DNA from: Spirogloea muscicola
Taxonomy: Eukaryota > Streptophyta > Zygnematophyceae > Spirogloeales > Spirogloeaceae
Direction of reading: 5' to 3'
Assembly: GCA_009602725.1 (NCBI GenBank)
Contig: WELB01000285.1
Coordinates: forward strand, 9,654 to 73,653
Length of the DNA stretch: 64,000 nucleotides
Shown here one piece after another: positions 5,212 through 54,511 of the stretch. Every line of letters begins with the position of its first letter. Position 1 is the first letter of the stretch. The notes beneath the pieces are model-generated. The model was not told the DNA's origin and did not search any database. It saw only the letters and a program-made list of their open reading frames with translations. The position numbers and the translations under genes are program-made.

Positions 5212-6174
<963 letters not shown>

Positions 6175-14994: not shown

Positions 14995-14996
<2 letters not shown>

Positions 14997-18755: not shown

Positions 18756-19219
18756 GGAGACAAGTACCCACGCTGCTTCTTACATGAAGCTAAGTACTTC
18801 CTGCGCTGCAGCGCAGACAACAACCCAGCCTATGCCCAGCTGTGTCTCACAAAAGCAAAGCCGTTGTCTCGTTTGGTTTTCATTACAAGCAACAAGAGGG
18901 AGGTCGCATCCCGTCCACTTGACAAAATGACGGTGCTAGTCAGCCCAACCAGCTATCCTTGCTACTAGACTGAAACCATGCCCACTGACCACACGCTTTA
19001 CAGTTGGCCAGATGCTTGATCTAACACGATGCAAACACCTTACTAGTCAAGGACGCTCTTGCATGCAAGAGCATCACGATGCAACAAAAGACAGTGAGCA
19101 TAGCAAGCTATAAATGCAAGATGCCTGACATGTGAAACAGTGACTGCAGTCCTCCACTTGATTACGACCTGCACATGAACGTCTGCAAAGTCCTGCACAG
19201 CACAAACCACAACGAACAT

Positions 19220-19305
19220 TCGGCACACTCCCTCCGCAGGTCTTAACCTGGTCAGGTTGTAAGGGACTCTCTCAGCCTGCTCTCAGTCACCACCCCTTGT
19301 GTTGG
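19220..19305 (-). promoter_or_regulatory. TPP riboswitch in the THIC 3' region
   Basis: On the minus strand the order is: P1 5' strand ACAC, P2 'aaggggtg', the conserved CTGAGA followed by 'gagtccctt', then 'aacctgaccaggtt', 'aagacctgcggaggga' and P1 3' strand GTGT. These are the thi-box parts of a thiamine pyrophosphate aptamer in the right order and spacing, with a short P3. It lies about 440 bases downstream of the THIC stop on the same strand, as in land-plant THIC 3' UTRs. There TPP binding changes splicing and 3'-end processing and lowers THIC mRNA. Which splice site it controls here is not resolved. Confidence 0.93.
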
Positions 19306-19746
19306 GGATGGTGAACCTCGAGCAAGCACCCCCGGTGCCGAAATAGTTAGCCACAACTCTTCACAAATGGAAAACAATCCAATGCAACCTGCTGTTCCAA
19401 GGTCAAGGGCAAACGAGCCTGCTGTGGCATATCCAAGAGCAGTCTATGACCAGTACGACTCAGCATGCAGACTACAGCAGCCTCTGAAAACGAGCATCCA
19501 ACTCAAATCAATCCTGAGCTGCCTGTGCGTGATGCTCTGGTACCTGCAAAAGCCCGTAGTAGAGACGACTGAGAACGTAGGGGCTGAAGGAGATTATTGC
19601 AAGGTGCAGAATTCTTGATTACAGCAAGAACACATGCTTGAAGCATGCACACTGCACATATCTGGAATGCAGAAGGAGACGTACCGGATTTGCACGCACT
19701 CAAGTAAAAGGGTGGTTATAGGCCACTCACGTATTTAGTAGTCCAA

Positions 19747-23710
<3,964 letters not shown>

Positions 23711-23794
23711 GGCGCGGAGGGAGGCGGGGCCACTGTGATGCTTACTGTGTTCGTCGTCCTCAGACGGGACCCCTAGTGGGTTGTCAGATATGCA

Positions 23795-24370
23795 TGTGCT
23801 CACTCGGGGATATTAGTGCCCCCTTTAGCCAGCTCATTACCCAGTAAAAAGGACATTTGTAAGGCTAGAGTTGGCCTCCCTATCAATGTCATGCGCACCG
23901 CGCGACTCTCCTAGTGGAAGGGGGGGCGGGTCTTTCTCACTTAGAAGGGAGCCTAGCGTCGGAGCCCGTTTGTTCTCAAAAGACCCGCTCCTACCAGTGA
24001 GACGAGACGGTCGGGATCGCCGCGGCGAGCACGAGCCCAAGCATTGACGGCGTGAGGCGTCATCAGCCACGACCACGGCGGGTGGCGAAGGGCCCCCGCG
24101 TGGCCCAATTGACTGGTGGCTGTGAGAGGCCAGCCCAACGAGCCAGCCTTCGAGAGGCCCAGGGCTCGGATACCATCTCGAGCGGTCGCGACGACGGCCA
24201 ACGGCATACGCCGTCACCGCGACACGTCACCGTCGCGCATGCCGGTCTTGGCAGACGGGGGCCAAGCGCGCATGCTGGAAGGCCGTCCCGTGTCTACATT
24301 CGCTAGCTGGAGATTGCCACTCAAGTTTCTCATCGGGCTGTCCTTTCACAGCGCGGAAAGCACGCGGGAT
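23795..24370 (+). repeat. Repeat B copy and hairpin-type unit between THIC and THI4
   Basis: Copy 3 of repeat B lies at 23,795-23,925. A minus-strand hairpin-unit core lies near 24,110-24,135 ('actggtggctgtgagaggcc'), and another 'gggctg...cacagc' core near 24,335. These sit between the two thiamine start codons (886 bases apart) and probably moved into a shared promoter. I found no gene here. Confidence 0.6.
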
Positions 24371-24518
24371 GGTGAGAGGCAGCTCATGGACACGGGCCGC
24401 GATGGGGCCCGGCAGCAGGCACCTGCTTTCCCCTTCATTGTGCGGCTGCGGCGCAGTGCCAAGCCACTCTCAGATGTCACTTTCCCTTCAGCTCCACACC
24501 GCCGCCGCCGCCGCGACG

Positions 24519-24549
<31 letters not shown>

Positions 24550-24596
24550 CCGCCGCTCCTGCCGCTCTTAGCCCTCCCTCTCGCTTGCACTCATCT

Positions 24597-26267
<1,671 letters not shown>

Positions 26268-26458
26268 CAGCCAACTTTGCCCAAGCCTCCTCCTGTGCTG
26301 CATTGATTTTTGCCAGACTGATGATTTGCAATGCTTGCATCAGTAGCAACAACGAGCTGTAGTGTGCACAGTGATGGATGTGAGTAGTGCTAGGCGTGAC
26401 CCTGACAGACAGGCGGACAGTATTGTCTTCGTTGTCAGTGTGCTTGCTTTGGTTGGTT

Positions 26459-26566
26459 GGCACTGGGGGTGCCCGGCATACTGCAAGGCTTTTGGCCTTT
26501 GCATGATGCGGGCTGAGATTATACCCTTACCACCTGATCAGGATAATGCCTGCGGAGGGAAGTGCC
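26459..26566 (+). promoter_or_regulatory. TPP riboswitch 1 of 3, THI4 3' region
   Basis: P1 pairs GGCACT (26,459-26,464) with AGTGCC (26,561-26,566). Then come 'gggggtgc', an extended P3 stem-loop (GCAAGGC/GCCTTTGC), 'ggctgagattatacccttac', 'acctgatcaggataatgcct' and 'gcggagggaa'. All conserved TPP aptamer blocks are present in order. It starts 192 bases after the THI4 stop and has the longest P3 arm of the three. Confidence 0.96.
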
Positions 26567-26642
26567 TTGTCTGTCTTGATGTCATTGTCTGGTGGTCTAT
26601 GCTGCTTGTGGTGTCTGTTCTGATACTGACGTACAACCATCT

Positions 26643-26732
26643 GGCACCGGGGGTGCTCAAGCAAATTTGTTGCTTGGGCTGAGATCATACCCCAAGACCT
26701 GATCAGGATAATGCCTGCGAAGGAAGCGTGCC
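26643..26732 (+). promoter_or_regulatory. TPP riboswitch 2 of 3, THI4 3' region
   Basis: P1 pairs GGCAC (26,643 on) with GTGCC (ending 26,732). The core reads 'gggggtgc', P3 'caagcaaatttgttgcttg', 'ggctgagatcatacccc', 'acctgatcaggataatgcct' and 'gcgaaggaagc'. The last block is one G short of the usual 'gcgtagggaa', so this copy may bind TPP less tightly or behave differently. Confidence 0.94.
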
Positions 26733-26821
26733 AATGGGTTGTGTTCGTTGTTTGTGTGACCAGGAAGCGGGCTGCCTCTGTCATTCTTTGATGTCTTTGA
26801 CACCTGTACTGACTTACTTGT

Positions 26822-26908
26822 GGCACCAGGGGTGCTCGAGCATCACTGCTCGGGCTGAGATCATACCCTGTCACCTGATCAGGATAATTCCTGCGTAGGG
26901 AGTGTGCC
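26822..26908 (+). promoter_or_regulatory. TPP riboswitch 3 of 3, THI4 3' region
   Basis: P1 pairs GGCAC (26,822 on) with GTGCC (ending 26,908). The core reads 'aggggtgc', P3 'cgagcatcactgctcg', 'ggctgagatcataccctg', 'acctgatcaggataattcct' and 'gcgtagggag'. The last block is closest to consensus of the three. It begins 179 bases after copy 2, which begins 184 bases after copy 1. Confidence 0.95.
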
Positions 26909-26969
26909 GAGTTGTTGTGTGCATGTGAGCAGGTGCAGCTAGGACCGATGGCACCGTGGTATATGTGGT

Positions 26970-26974
26970 TGTAA
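26970..26974 (+). terminator. Candidate TGTAA polyadenylation signal for THI4
   Basis: TGTAA is the common green-algal poly(A) signal. This one lies about 60 bases after the third aptamer and would place all three riboswitches inside the THI4 mRNA. Short motifs occur by chance, so support is modest. Confidence 0.4.
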
Positions 26975-27189
26975 TGTTGGCGGTGCTCCTAAAGCACCTG
27001 CGGTCTGGACGAGCTTGCACAAGCTCTGATGGAATTTTACTGTGTACTGAGGCCTGCTCGTAGTCTCTCTTTTGGGATTCGCAAAGTCATGCTCTCATTA
27101 GTCTCTCTGTTTGAACCAGCACAGGCACAAATCATTGCCTTCTGTAAGACACAATCCTCATGTTGCGGCATACTTGTTTATGTGTACAT

Positions 27190-27345
27190 ATCAGCTTGCA
27201 ATGAGGTCTTCAGCCGTCCTTGAGATGTCTGCAGGAAGCTTCGCATTGCATCCATGACTTCTGCTTTTTGGTTGAAGACATCAGGACATAAGACTCTCGC
27301 AAAGTTTGCCAACAACTCGACATCATAGCTAAGAGGTTCAAGTCG
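27190..27345 (-). CDS. Possible terminal exon of an unknown gene
   Basis: A minus-strand frame reads PEARLEPLSYDVELLANFAR, continues through a hydrophobic/charged pattern with FNQKAEVMDAMRSFLQTS, and stops near 27,190. It reads like a real helical protein, and its composition differs from the shadow frames. A second piece (WRLPAACAAVLVDELKRGFG) lies just upstream near 27,440, but I could not splice the two together. It is downstream of the AP2 gene and could be an unrelated small gene. Confidence 0.25.
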
Positions 27346-41893: not shown

Positions 41894-44655
41894 TTAACAA
41901 TAGTCTCTCAACACTACACACTGGCAGCCGTCCACTGTCTCCAACCGGACCACATTGCTGTACATGTTAAACAAGCTGACTAATTCGCGAGCACCAAGCG
42001 ACACCAGACTGGCGGGCCGGGAGTATCTCTGCAGGTAGAGGTCCTCAAAAGCATGCATGGGTAGGAGACCTCCGAAGCTCACAAGCAGCTCAATAAGGTC
42101 CCAAGCAAAGGCATCCGACTCACGTCCGCTAGGCATGAGGCCTCTACTATCCGCCACATTGCCTCCCCCCTGTGCCTGTTCCAGCTGCTCCCGCTTGATC
42201 ACGCTGCCGTCATCTTCAACGGAATCGCCTTCATCGACCAGCTTTGCCGCTGGCAGTTCAGAAGGAACGCTGGGGGTTTGTGAGTGCACAGGTGCACAGG
42301 TGGGAGGCATCTCACTCACGCCTTCCCTGCCGCTCTGTAGCTCCCCAAGCTTCAACGAAGCTGAGCTCTTTGCCTCCTCAACCTCGTAGCTCAAGCTGGC
42401 TGCCTCCTCCAATCCACTTCCAGCTTGTAGCAGCTTCTGCTCAGATGTTGCTGCCAAGGACGCCTTGGTTGCTGCAAACGCGTCCGGGTCCTCTACCTCG
42501 CTCTCCTCTGTCTCCTCTGGGTCCGAGGTCGTATCCTGCAGCGCCGTGTTGACGAGGACAACCTGGGACGGATCACTGATCCTGCCCAACTTCACGTCAA
42601 CTTCTTCTGCGCTTTCGGGTGCTGCCACTTCTCTCTCCTCCTCAGTTCCGCTCGTCTGTGCCTCCACATCGGCTCTCTCCTCGACCACCCTCTGGTCGCC
42701 ATCGTTTGCCGCCCCGTGCCTTTGCAACTTCAGCAACTGCTGTCTCGCGGCTGGGTTTCTGAGAACCAACAACTTCCGGACGCCAATCCCCTGCACGTCC
42801 AGCACGTCCCTCATCCGCTCCAGCAGGTACTTGAGCTTAGGGACGCCATACTCAGTGAGGTACAGAGGTCGCTGATAGTGCCGCCGATACTCGGTCGGCA
42901 CCCGCACAAGTGCCAGCCGGCCGCCATGGAGCCGCAGGAGCTCGACCAACTGGCGCTTCAGGCCCTGCAGGTCCCCAGGCTGGACGAAGGTGCTGCCGAC
43001 GCTGCGCTGTCTGTCAGTAGGGTCTCCCTCGAGCCCGATGCCACCAGCGGCAGGAGGAGTTGCTGCAGCGGCACCTCCAGCGCCAGTGGTGGTCAGGGGA
43101 TGGTACTTGGGGTGCATCTCCCAGGCCTGACACAACCGCTGCACAGACTGCTGGCTGTACCTTACGCAAGATGCTGGGACAGCCTCGTGGCCAGCGCCCC
43201 TTCCATCATCGCAGACTGCACCTGGTGCTGACGTGCCCACTGATGTGCCAGTGCTTGCACTGCGTGCGATGTCCTGTGCGCCGGCAAGGCCTGTCAGGGG
43301 GGCTCCTGCGAGATAGGATGCCAGGCTCTTCGGGCTGACGTCTTGAAACGCTCCACCCTCTACGGCAGGAGGAGACCACCCGTGACCAGCTCTGTGGACC
43401 GAAGAATGGCCATCATTGGGTGGCTGGCGCCGTTCGCTTTGGCCTGACTCCAAGCTGTAGTCTGCCGCGACCAGATTGCTGCGTGCTGAGGCATAGACAC
43501 ACAACCTCTCTTGACCAACTTGGCCATTGAAGCAGACTGGATGGCCCCCTTCACTGCGCTGTGACAGGTGCGGCGGCGGCTGGTGTGGTGGCGGCGTGCC
43601 GTGAACTGGCCCATCTGTTGAGGCCGTTCTGACACGGTACGGAATTGCGCACTTGGCCGGGACTAAGCCGTCCCCCCTTGCCAGGCATGGCCAGTCCCAC
43701 ACGTAGCTGCCAGCTCTGCGACCAGGAAGGATAACCACAACGCAGGCTTTGTGAGCTTGAGTAGTGTAGCAGCTGCCTACGAAGTGATACTTAGCTGCAG
43801 GTGCCTGTGGAAGATCGGCCGCACTGCTTGACACTGCATCTGGTTACAAGGCCCTGAGGACGATTTGTACGCCATTCGAGATATGGGTTCCTTGCATGAG
43901 GCTGTGACGTCAACTGGAGGTGGTCATGCCTGACGAGCGCGGGCGAGACGCCAACGCCTGCAGGTACCGCCAGCAGCACCGCATAGCCCCGCTGCGCGAG
44001 CTTGTGCAGCGCGGGTGAGAAGTCGCCGTCGCCGGAGATGAGGAGGATGGTGGACGGCGGCGGGTTGTCGAGCGCAAAGAGGAACATGTCCACGAGGATG
44101 GCCTTGTCTACACTCGCGGCAATGGAGGACGGTGTCACGACAGCAATTAAAGTGGCAAAGTGCTGCTGGCTGCCACAACGGAGGTCGTTAATTATCAGAG
44201 GTGACATCTATCAGACACTGGCGGTTCCAGCTGACCTGCGGCGTCCTTCTTGCCGTTGGGGACGTCGATGAGGCTGACGCCGGTGTGCTGGCAGCCCTCC
44301 CGGAGCTTCTTGGGGAACATGTTGAAGTCGCCGTAGGCGGCGAAGGACGTGACGGCGGCGGCGCGCACCGCGGGGTGGCCGCGCAGCGCGCCGCGGATGT
44401 TGCCGGCCACGTCCTCGGGCGGCACCTGCCCTGCCGTGCTCCACCGGCAGACCAGCCGCACCCATCAGCCACGAGCATGGCTTCCTCGCCACCAAAAGGA
44501 CCTCTAACGGCGAGTCCGGACGAGTGGCGAGACGGTTCCCAGCGTTCGGGCTCACCAGGCACGCCGCAATTCTCGATGTCCCAGAGGATCGCCATGGGCC
44601 CGGCGGCGGCGGCGGCAAGCGGAGCAGCCGCCGCGGAGCCTCCGGCGAGAGCCAT
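41894..44655 (-). CDS. NYN-LOTUS protein (MARF1/limkain-b1-like endoribonuclease)
   Basis: Four exons (44,655-44,556, 44,430-44,236, 44,107-43,930, 43,715-41,894) join in phase to 764 residues. Exons 1-3 form a NYN nuclease domain: MAILWDIENCGVP, VPPEDVAGNIRGAL, DKAILVDMFLFALDNPPP and ISGDGDFSPALHKLAQRGY, with the acidic metal-binding residues intact. Exon 4 continues with SYVWDWPCLARGDGLVP. It then has a LOTUS/OST-HTH domain at about residues 405-475 (LKRQLVELLRLHGGRLALV) and a second at about 690-764 (WDLIELLVSFGGLLPMHAFE). An acidic, disordered segment separates the two. The architecture suggests RNA decay or silencing in RNP granules. The third intron begins GCATGA (GC-AG). It diverges from the DnaE gene. 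Confidence 0.93.
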
Positions 44656-51300: not shown

Positions 51301-54300
51301 CCTGCTTCTCAATGGGCGCTGATATTGCAGCTGGAGACATCTGGTGGCATGCGGCACGTTGTCAGAGACCTGAAGCCATCGCGCATCCAGGACATCTTTG
51401 CCATTCTGGCCCTTTACCGTCCTGGGTATGGCATCTCATTCACTCACTTCAGCAGCTGTTCTCTGATGAAGTGCTCCCTTTACAAAGCTGTAGCTTAGCT
51501 TGATAGTGGCCATGTCTGATGCCCTACAAACAGACCGTTGGATGCTGGTCTGGTGCAGGAGTACATTGATCGCAAGCACGGTGTGAAGCAGGCATGCCAC
51601 GACCCTGACCTTTTGAGTATCAACAAACTTTGTCTAGATCTATTAGCATAAGCTACCTGCCATCATTATGTGACATCTCCATGTTCTGCCCAACAAAGCA
51701 TTGCATTGCTTTAGAGTTGTCTTTGTCAAGTGCCGCTAACTGTGGTGCTGATCCTTGTCCTGATAGGTTGAATATGCCACTCCAGAGCTTGAGCCCATCC
51801 TGAAGGAGACCTATGGCGTGCTCCTTTATCAAGAGCAGATTATGCGCATGGCCAGGGACTTGGCAGGCTACAGCCTTGGCCAGGCAGATCTACTGCGGCG
51901 AGCTATGGGTAAAAAGAAGCGAGAAGATATGGAGAGGGAGCGCAAGAGGTTTGTGGGGGGTGCCCTTGACAAGGGTGTCGAGGCCAAGGTTGCTGAGGAG
52001 CTTTTCGAAACTATGGTGAGCGCCTGAGCTAGAGCATCGCATATATGCTAGGTGTGCCTACATCGACCCTCGACACATGGTGGTGATGAATTGTCCATAG
52101 TGACACAATGGTGGCTGCTTTGCATACATATTGATCAGCAGGAGCGAGACAACTTGCTTGTCTTCCTTCCAGAGGAGCCATGTACTTGATTCTGCTGAAT
52201 GATTCTTGGATTTTTTGGGTAAACAGGTAAAATTTTCAGAGTACTGCTTCAACAAGAGCCACAGTGCTGCGTACGGGTACATCACTTACATGACAGCGTA
52301 CTTGAAAGCAAACTATCCAGTTGCCTACATGGCTGCCCTCATGAGCTGTGCCGCCAGTGACACGGACAAGATAAGGCGCTACATTGCAGCGTGTCAAGCC
52401 ATGGGGATTGAGCTCCTCCTTCCTTGCCTGAATGAATCAAGAGAGGACTTCACTATCGCACGAGTTGGACTAGCAGCTGGACATCTGGAGGGGCTTCACG
52501 ATGACCGAGGAAGCTCTGCGAATGGTGCATTGTCTGCTGCCTTTGAGATCACAGACGTAGGGCACGGAGCAGGGAAGGAGGACAACTCATTGTCAGCTGA
52601 AAATTTGAGCAAATATCCAACTGGGGCTATATGGCATGGCCTTACAGCAGTGAGGCACATTGGCGAGGGACCCGTGGTAGCACTCCTCAAAATTCGAGAT
52701 GAAGGTGGCCCATTCAAGTCAGTGTTGGACTTGTGCGAGCGAGTGGATGTGAAGGTCGTGCCAAAGCGGGCTCTCAAAGCCCTCTCTGGCAGCGGCGCAC
52801 TGGACTGCTTGGGCGCTGATTACCCCGACGATGACGAGGAGGGAGATGGAGGAAGGAGGGGGGTGAATCGGGCCTGGATGTGGAAAGTACTTGAGGAAGA
52901 ACTTGACCGACGCTCAAAGGAGGCAATGAAGGAACGACGGCGAGCGGCAAAGGAAGAGAAGAAGCAGAAGCAGGACATGGACAGCCTGCCAAGTGGAACA
53001 GCAGCAAGCAGCAACGATAGCTTGTCCAGTGCATGCGCCAGGCAAGACGACGGAGGCGATGAGAAGGTGGATGGTGCAGTGATGCTCGAGGGAGAAGCTT
53101 CACAAACGGCCGAGATCGCCATGAGCCTGTCAGCGGTGAAGGCCAATACAGGGGAAGATGGTGGGGGCTTCGCTTTGAAGAAGGGCGCAAACAGAAAAGG
53201 GAGGCCTCGGAAAGCAAGTGTCATTGCAGATGCGGAGGCAAGCACCGCGGAAGCAGTGGAAAGCTTGGAGGAGGAGGAGGAGGAGGAGAGGAGGCAGGCA
53301 GCGCGGGTGCAGCAGAGCCGCGAGGAGCGGTGCAAGGAGCAGAAGGACCTGCTGGGGTACTGGCCAGATCACCCAATCGGCCCTCTGCTGGAGCGCCTGC
53401 CCGAGTGGTCGGTGCCTCTGAGGCTTTGCGATGCGGGTGAGCCGGAGAACGAAGGGAAGCTTGTGACTACGGCGGTGCTTGTCGGGGACACCACCGAGAA
53501 GGTGACCAAGGCTGGGCGCCACTATGCCACAGTGCAGCTGGATGACTGCACGGGACAGCTGGAGGGCGTCGTATTTGACCCCGCATACACCAGCGTCAAG
53601 GAGCTCTTCAGGGAGGACGCGCTGCTGCTGGTGTATGGCGAGCTGGAGCGGCGGGGGGACCGCAAGAGTGCCGGGAGGAACGAGGAGGCCGGTAGTGCCG
53701 AGCTGGGGCTTGGCTTGGCTTTGGCAGCTGCGAGCCCGGCCGACATGCAGATCAAGGTGCGCGGCGCGGTGGAGATTGACAAGGCGCGCATCGTGTGCGT
53801 GCAGCTGACGCCCACCGAGGCCACTGATACGAGCAAGCAGAACATCCTGGAGCGGGTTTTGGCTGGGAGGGCCTTGCAGCAGCGAGGCAGGCGGCGGAAG
53901 AACCAGGTCATCAATACCGTCCCTGTTGTCATCACGATCATCCCTGAGGGTGAGGGCGACAATGCCTTGGGGCTGGCAGATACGACAGCCTTCCACTCGG
54001 AAATCCGGGAGGGTGATGGTGCTACCACCGCACAGCAGCTCGGGGACGAGGGCGAGAGGGCACTCGACCTAACCAGGTTAGGGGAGGCCGGCTGTTTGGA
54101 GTACGTCTATTTCGGCCCCACCTCAAACACAGTAAGCAAATCCACAACCGCAGTAGCAATAATGGTTACCTGGCTATATGACAGAAATTTTCCATGGCTC
54201 TGTATTTTCATGCTCCACATTTGCATTGTTGTCTGCAGTCTGCATGTCGATTTTGCTGACAATGGACGCAGCCTGTTTTCTATCCCCAGGACGATGCAGA

Positions 54301-54511
54301 CGCCACGGCACGCAAACTCAGAGCTGCAGGTTTCCAGGTTGACGTCAGGCCCTTGCTCTTGGACAAGCAGCTCGCATCAGCCACACGTGCCCATAAGCTG
54401 CAGAAGCCACCCATCCACAGCAACTGCAAGAGCCAGTCACTTGCAGCTGACGCTGCTCCAGGCACCCCACACATTGCAGGCCAGACTCTCTCAGACTCTT
54501 TGGTAGTCTAG
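45320..54511 (+). CDS. dnaE: Bacterial-type DNA polymerase III alpha subunit (DnaE), nuclear, intron-split
   Basis: About 24 exons. Firm ones are 45,320-45,739, 45,977-46,043, 46,283-46,403, 46,571-46,658, 47,179-47,239, 47,620-47,725, 47,889-47,972, 48,291-48,422, 48,607-48,690, 48,855-48,986, 49,231-49,289, 49,389-49,456, 49,597-49,682, 49,946-50,092, 50,313-50,408, 50,579-50,686, 50,890-51,141, 51,331-51,425, 51,534-51,591, 51,767-52,015, 52,227-54,131 and 54,290-54,511. Short exons near 46,870, 47,240-47,620 and 48,250 are unresolved. Product at least 1,540 residues. An Arg/Ser/Ala-rich leader precedes the PHP domain ([22 protein letters not shown]). The C-family palm has PDIDTDFC and KMDLLGLK (the three metal-binding Asp), plus [12 protein letters not shown] and [11 protein letters not shown] charged insert (about 52,830-53,340) precedes an OB fold ([16 protein letters not shown]). 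The intron after 51,591 is GC-AG. The alternative start at 45,377 (MWRGGL) would shorten the leader. Confidence 0.95.
46447..46493. repeat. Poly(C) tract with one N in a DnaE intron
   Basis: About 46 C bases, interrupted by one unresolved base at about 46,474, lie in the 167-base intron between 46,403 and 46,571. Length is probably uncertain. Confidence 0.9.

Follow-up and report, generated by a model that had tools for sequence, protein, structure and literature searches.

A conserved array of three TPP aptamers in the 3' region of THI4 in the streptophyte alga Spirogloea muscicola

The TPP riboswitches of plants lie in 3' UTRs, where they control splicing and 3'-end processing (PMC10226581). 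Part of P4-P5 is described as pairing near the 5' splice site at low TPP (PMC2258182), and a spliced form, THIC-III, as lacking 7 bp at the 5' end of the aptamer (PMC5853225). According to a paper on diatoms, the acceptor AG of green-algal and plant aptamers falls within the AGGG of the P2 stem (PMC9544697). A second plant TPP riboswitch, that of THI1, is described as lost in angiosperms and as present in plants except these and certain gymnosperms (PMC10226581), and THI1/THI4 riboswitches have been reported both in non-angiosperm plants and in chlorophytes (PMC4260697, PMC10226581, PMC5853225). A 2025 review gives TPP and its analogues as the ligands of all eukaryotic riboswitches known (PMC12371167). 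Single aptamers on algal and plant THIC and THI4 genes (PMC4260697, PMC10226581) and tandem TPP arrays in bacteria (PMC9481103, PMC12452182), both taken as known in the initial annotation of the present locus, are indeed published.

TPP riboswitches in series are common in bacteria, though triples are rare there. One survey reports 213 tandem TPP representatives with one example of three (PMC9481103), and a table for the Bacillota gives 2-8% triples for thiE, thiD, thiM and thiC (PMC12452182). These arrays resemble the one described here in their serial arrangement, but sit in 5' leaders and involve no splicing. Among eukaryotes, Saprolegnia NMT1 likewise has more than one TPP aptamer per gene, which is explained by duplication; unlike the present case, it has two aptamers, located in 5'-UTR introns of a different gene in oomycetes (PMC5882874). 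More than one aptamer per algal gene is also described for the Micromonas gene(s), but there the riboswitches occupy both UTRs, at opposite ends and on other genes, and form no array (PMC4260697). The initial annotation knew of no triple array in a eukaryotic 3' region. Among the open-access literature matches listed there is indeed no eukaryotic triple TPP array, although two-aptamer eukaryotic genes had already been described. In the published matches listed, eukaryotic riboswitches are single or at most paired per gene.

With the THIC 3'-UTR riboswitch of plants such as Arabidopsis and cassava, the present locus shares the aptamer class, a location 3' of a thiamine biosynthesis gene and, in its third copy only, a putative acceptor at the aptamer's 5' edge. 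It differs in having three aptamers rather than one, in their location behind THI4 rather than THIC, and in that the regulated splice is one that we infer. Gene and ligand class are those of the non-angiosperm THI1/THI4 riboswitch; that system is spoken of as one riboswitch (PMC10226581), and here there are three aptamers.

The DNA analysed (the window) is the whole 64,000-nucleotide stretch. THI4/THI1 (thiazole synthase, 24597..26267, + strand; Pfam Thi4, E 7.2e-114) comprises five exons (24597-24845, 24995-25366, 25542-25637, 25740-25952 and 26103-26267), which splice into a frame of 364 aa with no internal stop; its best PDB match is 1rp0, 'Thiazole biosynthetic enzyme' (E 7.9e-163). The window was searched on both strands by cmscan with the TPP model of Rfam 15 (RF00059, gathering score 54.3). 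Behind THI4 and on its strand (+), three matches exceed the gathering score, each over the full model (positions 1-105 of 105): 26455-26577 (69.5 bits, E 1.3e-11), 26639-26743 (62.7 bits, E 6.2e-10) and 26818-26919 (62.5 bits, E 6.9e-10). Delimited from P1 to P1, copy 1 occupies 26459..26566, copy 2 26643..26732 and copy 3 26822..26908, with start-to-start spacings of 184 and 179. Copy 1 has a long P3. The P1-P2 junction reads CACTGGGG in copy 1 and CACCGGGG in copy 2, both without an AG, and CACCAG/GGG in copy 3 (slashes mark splice boundaries), with a candidate plant-type acceptor ending at 26829. The RF00059 search proposed in the initial annotation therefore returns three copies rather than a single one, and bears out its reading of three complete aptamers, each with its own P1 (GGCAC and GTGCC), CTGAGA and ACCTGATCAGGATAAT block. 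The distance of 192 bases that it gave from the THI4 stop, which ends at 26267, to P1 of copy 1 at 26459 is also correct. A conserved triple TPP aptamer array is present in the 3' region of THI4.

The array recurs in the 153-Mb genome (471 contigs), in which at least 12 RF00059 matches over the cut-off were found at three places (49 of 3764 first-look candidates were scored for this count). Every version of the locus, both that of the window (C285) and those on contigs C17 and C33, has a THI4 followed by three aptamers and a THIC followed by one; when four stretches of C17 and C33 were submitted to cmscan independently, 8/8 aptamers were recovered. Collinear blocks with 80.6-94.3% identity link the versions across some 35 kb, where blocks >300 bases are counted, none of these lies before window position 14995, and the 50-kb pieces of C17 and C33 that were compared contain 11.6 and 12.3 kb of N. 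Since the same array is found on three contigs, it is no assembly artefact; a recent duplication was likewise rejected, given block alignment at this level of identity. Another, distant part of the window likewise occurs at three places in the genome. The three-place pattern fits a polyploid or anciently triplicated genome, and the genome of Spirogloea muscicola is triplicated. The TMP synthase domain TH1 (PF02581) was matched at one locus only, on contig C25 at about 895.7-896.7 kb, so that not all genes were recovered in triplicate; either the aptamer-bearing genes alone were retained in several copies or other TH1 copies were missed.

All 10/10 aligned aptamer rows, taken from 12 aptamers (C33 copy 1, identical to that of the window, and the C33 THIC aptamer were omitted), have helices P1, P2, P4 and P5 as well as the ligand-contact motifs CTGAGA and GCG. 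Of the four P4 pairs, the one beside the internal loop is a G-U in copy 3 and mismatched in copy 1, copy 2 and the THIC aptamer. Among the P1, P2, P4 and P5 pairs listed, 14/17 are invariant across the 10 rows, so that covariation says nothing on those pairs. Shuffled sequences that fold at least as well are rare for copies 1, 2 and 3 (3, 2 and 2 of 200; z -2.25, -2.45 and -2.76). No tandem repeat was detected by TRF at a score of 30 or more. A decayed fourth copy after copy 3, considered because of a GGCACC at 26952, was rejected, as RF00059 gives no match there up to E 10.

Variation was counted as variable columns in the three-way alignment of C285, C17 and C33. Together the THI4 aptamers vary at 8/285 columns (copy 1, 1/108; copy 2, 4/90; copy 3, 3/87), and the THIC aptamer varies at 3/117. 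The corresponding counts are 68/560 for the THI4 introns, 242/1993 for the THIC introns, 26/191 for the stretch from the stop to copy 1, 5/76 and 10/89 for the two spacers (15/165 together), 9/52 for 26909-26960 and 66/326 for 26961-27300; four-fold sites vary at 15/203 in THI4 and 26/313 in THIC. The aptamers are less variable than the THI4 introns (p = 1.7e-6), the stop-to-copy-1 stretch (p = 1.3e-5), the downstream region 26961-27300 (p = 5.4e-12) and the spacers (p = 0.006). The spacers, compared over the three versions, are not significantly more conserved than the introns (p 0.33). In terms of the Rfam structure, 0/8 aptamer changes break a pair: six affect unpaired bases and two turn A-U into G-U, both in P3 of copy 2. 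The change at 26531 in C17 would break a pair in the minimum-energy fold of copy 1, but the base is unpaired in the Rfam structure, and C17 copy 1 with this change scores higher against RF00059 (72.0 versus 69.5 bits). Because the aptamers vary so much less than the introns of their gene and no Rfam pair is broken, all three copies appear, as far as sequence can tell, to be under selection. Over a 64-base 3' part, neighbouring copies are 80-87% identical and counterparts across versions 97-100%; the copies had thus already diverged from one another when the three versions separated, and no homogenization has followed.

THI4 is arranged head to head with THIC (HMP-P synthase, 653 aa, 10 exons; 19747..23710, - strand; Pfam ThiC_Rad_SAM, E 8.4e-182), which is divergent from it and also has a spliced frame. 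Both genes are intact in C17 and C33, and the GT/GC and AG ends of their introns are kept in the three-way alignment. Intron 7 of THIC (20873-20672, - strand) is a GC-AG intron (AAAG/GCAAGT), with GCAAGT in all three versions. The intergenic region between the two start codons (23711..24596) presumably acts as a promoter region common to both genes. Both thiamine branches are thereby joined at one intergenic region, with TPP aptamers at the far ends. The THIC 3' region has a single aptamer (19222..19339, - strand; RF00059 55.1 bits over the full model, match 19343-19211) about 400 bases beyond the end of THIC at 19747; 0/200 shuffles fold as well.

As the host is a streptophyte alga, the plant 3'-UTR mechanism is the natural model for the array. 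In keeping with such a host, the four best PDB chains for PsaB of the same assembly include entries of moss photosystem I (6l35, 7ksq, 8htu), which rank ahead of green-algal chains. TPP binding would change the splicing of THI4 pre-mRNA and thereby 3'-end formation and stability, as published for plant THIC. From its sequence the array likely regulates THI4, and there is a strong case that the three aptamers act in cis on this gene; that they jointly give TPP feedback on THI4 by a plant-type mechanism is probable, if with less assurance. Diatom thiamine genes with predicted 3'-UTR TPP aptamers are reported not to be thiamine-regulated (PMC9544697), so the function of predicted aptamers should not be taken for granted.

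The splice signals differ between the copies. The CACCAG/GGG of copy 3 is kept in all three versions, its AG ending 8 bases into the aptamer (numbered from 26822); in copy 1, copy 2 and the THIC aptamer this place reads CACTGGG or CACCGGG, with no AG, in all three versions. Sites were scored with a matrix derived from the 13 introns of THI4 and THIC. The copy 3 acceptor reaches 6.5 and rank 2 among the AGs of 26268-26960, the top AG being 26343 (6.6), which lies upstream of the candidate donor at 26380. About 4% of + strand AGs reach a score of 6, and 12/13 training acceptors score 7.5 or more. A candidate branch point, TACTGAC, together with the copy 3 acceptor (TACTGACTTACTTGTGGCACCAG/G; 26807..26829, + strand) is found in all three versions, in each of which CTGAC precedes P1 of copy 3 by 13 nt. 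A distance of 13 bases is usual for a branch point. CTGAC or CTAAC also stands ahead of copy 2 and of the THIC aptamer, not of copy 1, and motifs of the CTGAC/CTAAC type occur in 4.5% of 30-base segments. An AG-free stretch (26563..26659, + strand) takes in the last bases of copy 1, the T-rich spacer and the beginning of copy 2, flanked by AGs at 26561 and 26660; it is AG-free in the other two versions as well, and 95-nt segments without AG make up 0.17% and 0.24% of those on the two strands of the window. Steeper or graded feedback, or a different splice or poly(A) site under each copy, was what the initial annotation thought conceivable. Because copy 3 alone has a plant-type acceptor, the sequence leans to unequal roles of the copies, not three equal switches, and we regard the unequal distribution of acceptors as the best clue to how the copies share the work.

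Copy 3 may be the copy that receives the regulated splice, since it is the one with a plant-type acceptor, placed after a branch-point-like TACTGAC; splicing from an upstream donor into it would then remove copies 1 and 2. We put this at somewhat below an even chance. A donor candidate is GAT/GTGAGT (26380), which is followed by a stretch complementary to P4-P5 at 26387-26409 (both within 26377..26409, + strand). This donor is weak: its score is 2.8, where the 13 training introns range over 5.9-11.1, and in C17 and C33 it is replaced by GTGAGG. If GC sites are counted, the highest-scoring donor ahead of copy 3 is one in copy 1 (26488, 4.9), and the best GT donor of the region, CAG/GTGCAG at 26933 (5.9), lies downstream of all three copies. 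Spacer donors among the ten best listed score 2.8 or less (26592, 26631). We speculate that copies 1 and 2 are additional sensors, and that at low TPP the donor is partly masked by their P4-P5 strands; splicing would then need more than one bound aptamer, and the response would be steeper than a single aptamer gives. A division of labour, in which the acceptor-less copies 1 and 2 lock the donor and copy 3 receives the splice that deletes the locks, is equally tentative. If it were true, splicing would require several bound copies, and the mRNA for this single-turnover, and hence costly, enzyme would be controlled with a cooperative threshold.

The predicted pairing of the donor region with P4-P5 gives a mixed picture, and the counts are nominal, uncorrected for the number of tests, which were chosen after inspection of the sequence. 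In the window, 22 and 11 of 792 background segments do as well as 26387-26409 does against P4-P5 of copies 1 and 2; in C17 the figures are 13 and 5 of 792, in C33 318 and 207. For copy 3 they are 95, 40 and 77 of 792 in the three versions. When the stretch from the stop to copy 1 is shuffled with its dinucleotides preserved, 65, 27 and 101 of 200 shuffles equal the donor-side pairing of copies 1, 2 and 3, which is thus nothing special. Pairing of P4-P5 with the aptamer's own 70-base 5' flank corresponds to a background share of 4% for copy 1 and is not special for copy 2 (46%), copy 3 (60%) or THIC (21%). THIC has splice-site candidates of its own, with acceptors in its 3' region at 19193 (11.2), 19389 (11.0), 19169 and 19544 (9.6 each) and a donor CAG/GTACCA at 19543 (8.1). 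P4 of its aptamer (CAACCTG) has a seven-base perfect match to CAGGTTG at a possible donor at 19388 (4.6); the longer duplex of P4-P5 with this CAG/GTTGCA region is equalled, version by version, by 22, 61 and 158 of 792 background segments, and pairing with the ACGTGAGT region behind the stop is at chance level (740, 740 and 576 of 792). Given these sites and this pairing, the splicing platform of THIC need not equal that of copy 3.

Folding of whole 3' regions, free or with the aptamers enforced, revealed no consistent change in the exposure of splice signals. The probability of copy 1's own P5 is 0.05 or less in a 521-base fold and about 0.9 in a 697-base fold of the window, a conflict that makes long folds unreliable here. 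All three copies have in common a perfectly self-complementary CCUGAUCAGG, and a self-complementary CCTGATCAGG is present in all THI4 aptamers (window 26533-26542, 26698-26707 and 26874-26883). In the minimum-energy structure of the 521-base window fold copy 1 is paired with copy 3, and the 697-base fold gives pairing between copies 2 and 3 a probability of 0.98 in C33 but of 0.07 or less in the other two versions. A further and weaker possibility is that unliganded copies could pair with each other via CCUGAUCAGG, for which the predictions are thus unstable.

The copies could instead be three equal, independent riboswitches in series, each served by a separate platform for splicing or poly(A) addition, that act pseudo-cooperatively, as bacterial tandem TPP arrays are described as doing (PMC9481103). 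Every copy is complete and conserved, the spacing is regular (184 and 179), and TACTGAC stands ahead of both copies 2 and 3, all of which speaks for such an arrangement. It would, however, leave copies 1 and 2 without the plant acceptor AG found in copy 3, span 26563-26659 where there is no AG whatever, and depend on spacer donors (26592, 26631) that score 2.8 or less among the ten best listed. We consider this reading unlikely.

Bound aptamers might also act without splicing, by altering cleavage and polyadenylation or the stability of an unspliced long 3' UTR. The weakness of the donors upstream of copy 3 agrees with such action, as do reports of eukaryotic TPP aptamers in apparently unspliced genes and in the 3' UTRs of single-exon genes (PMC4260697), and of a diatom predicted poly(A) site that overlaps the aptamer (PMC9544697). 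The copy 3 acceptor and the branch-point-like motif, however, are kept in all three versions, and the 3'-end signal that the initial annotation placed after the array is only partly substantiated. TGTAA is present at 26970, but is deleted in C33 and is reported as a chlorophyte signal, which makes it a weak sign of a 3' end. The pentamer is over-represented in the window (84 versus 60.7 expected; 0/100 shuffles reach 84). An EST study describes UGUAA as a chlorophyte signal that is lacking in streptophytes, with no clear near-upstream element in Closterium, Klebsormidium and Coleochaete, although UGUAA is nonetheless the top pentamer in the streptophyte Closterium (PMC1868727). With a streptophyte host the argument from TGTAA is weakened, and action without splicing seems to us a little less plausible still than three equal switches. 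Redundancy, with one regulating copy and the others harmless leftovers of tandem duplication, would suit copies that are recognizably related (80-87% identity over the 64-base 3' part) but is highly improbable, as introns and flanks are more variable than any of the copies (1/108, 4/90 and 3/87), no change breaks an Rfam pair, and each copy is closer to its counterparts (97-100%) than to the other copies.

Joint feedback by a plant-type mechanism, with unequal copies, is therefore the reading we prefer. Three near-unchanged elements suggest unusually elaborate feedback control of vitamin B1. A conserved triple in a lineage apparently near to the land plants would be a natural case of eukaryotic multi-aptamer control of RNA processing, and the array allows a direct test of whether added aptamers steepen a splicing response, as tandem riboswitches do in bacteria. 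The head-to-head THIC-THI4 pair with its far-end aptamers would be a simple system for coordinated feedback on both B1 branches.

Outside the alga, a DNA pattern gave 0 matches in viral contigs, and no THI4 was found in viral contigs. In GTDB genomes, two Peregrinibacteria MAG loci carry THI4 with 64-67% identity to the algal protein (L033 1569-2561 and L034 3827-4804), with one TPP aptamer just upstream of each; they possibly reflect gene transfer or an old bacterial THI4 lineage. Elsewhere in the window, among neighbours that the aptamers might serve in place of THI4 and THIC, Pfam gave no match for two minus-strand ORFs near 30 kb or for a 52-aa stretch near 17.7 kb. An ORF at 52206-54506 (+ strand) matches only HHH_6 and an OB fold in Pfam, and presumably resembles the C-terminal part of the bacterial DNA polymerase III alpha subunit; the contig is apparently nuclear. 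A 646-aa ORF at 41894-43834 (- strand) has an OST-HTH/LOTUS domain, and 5218-6174 (+ strand) is an ordinary polyubiquitin gene with four ubiquitin repeats.
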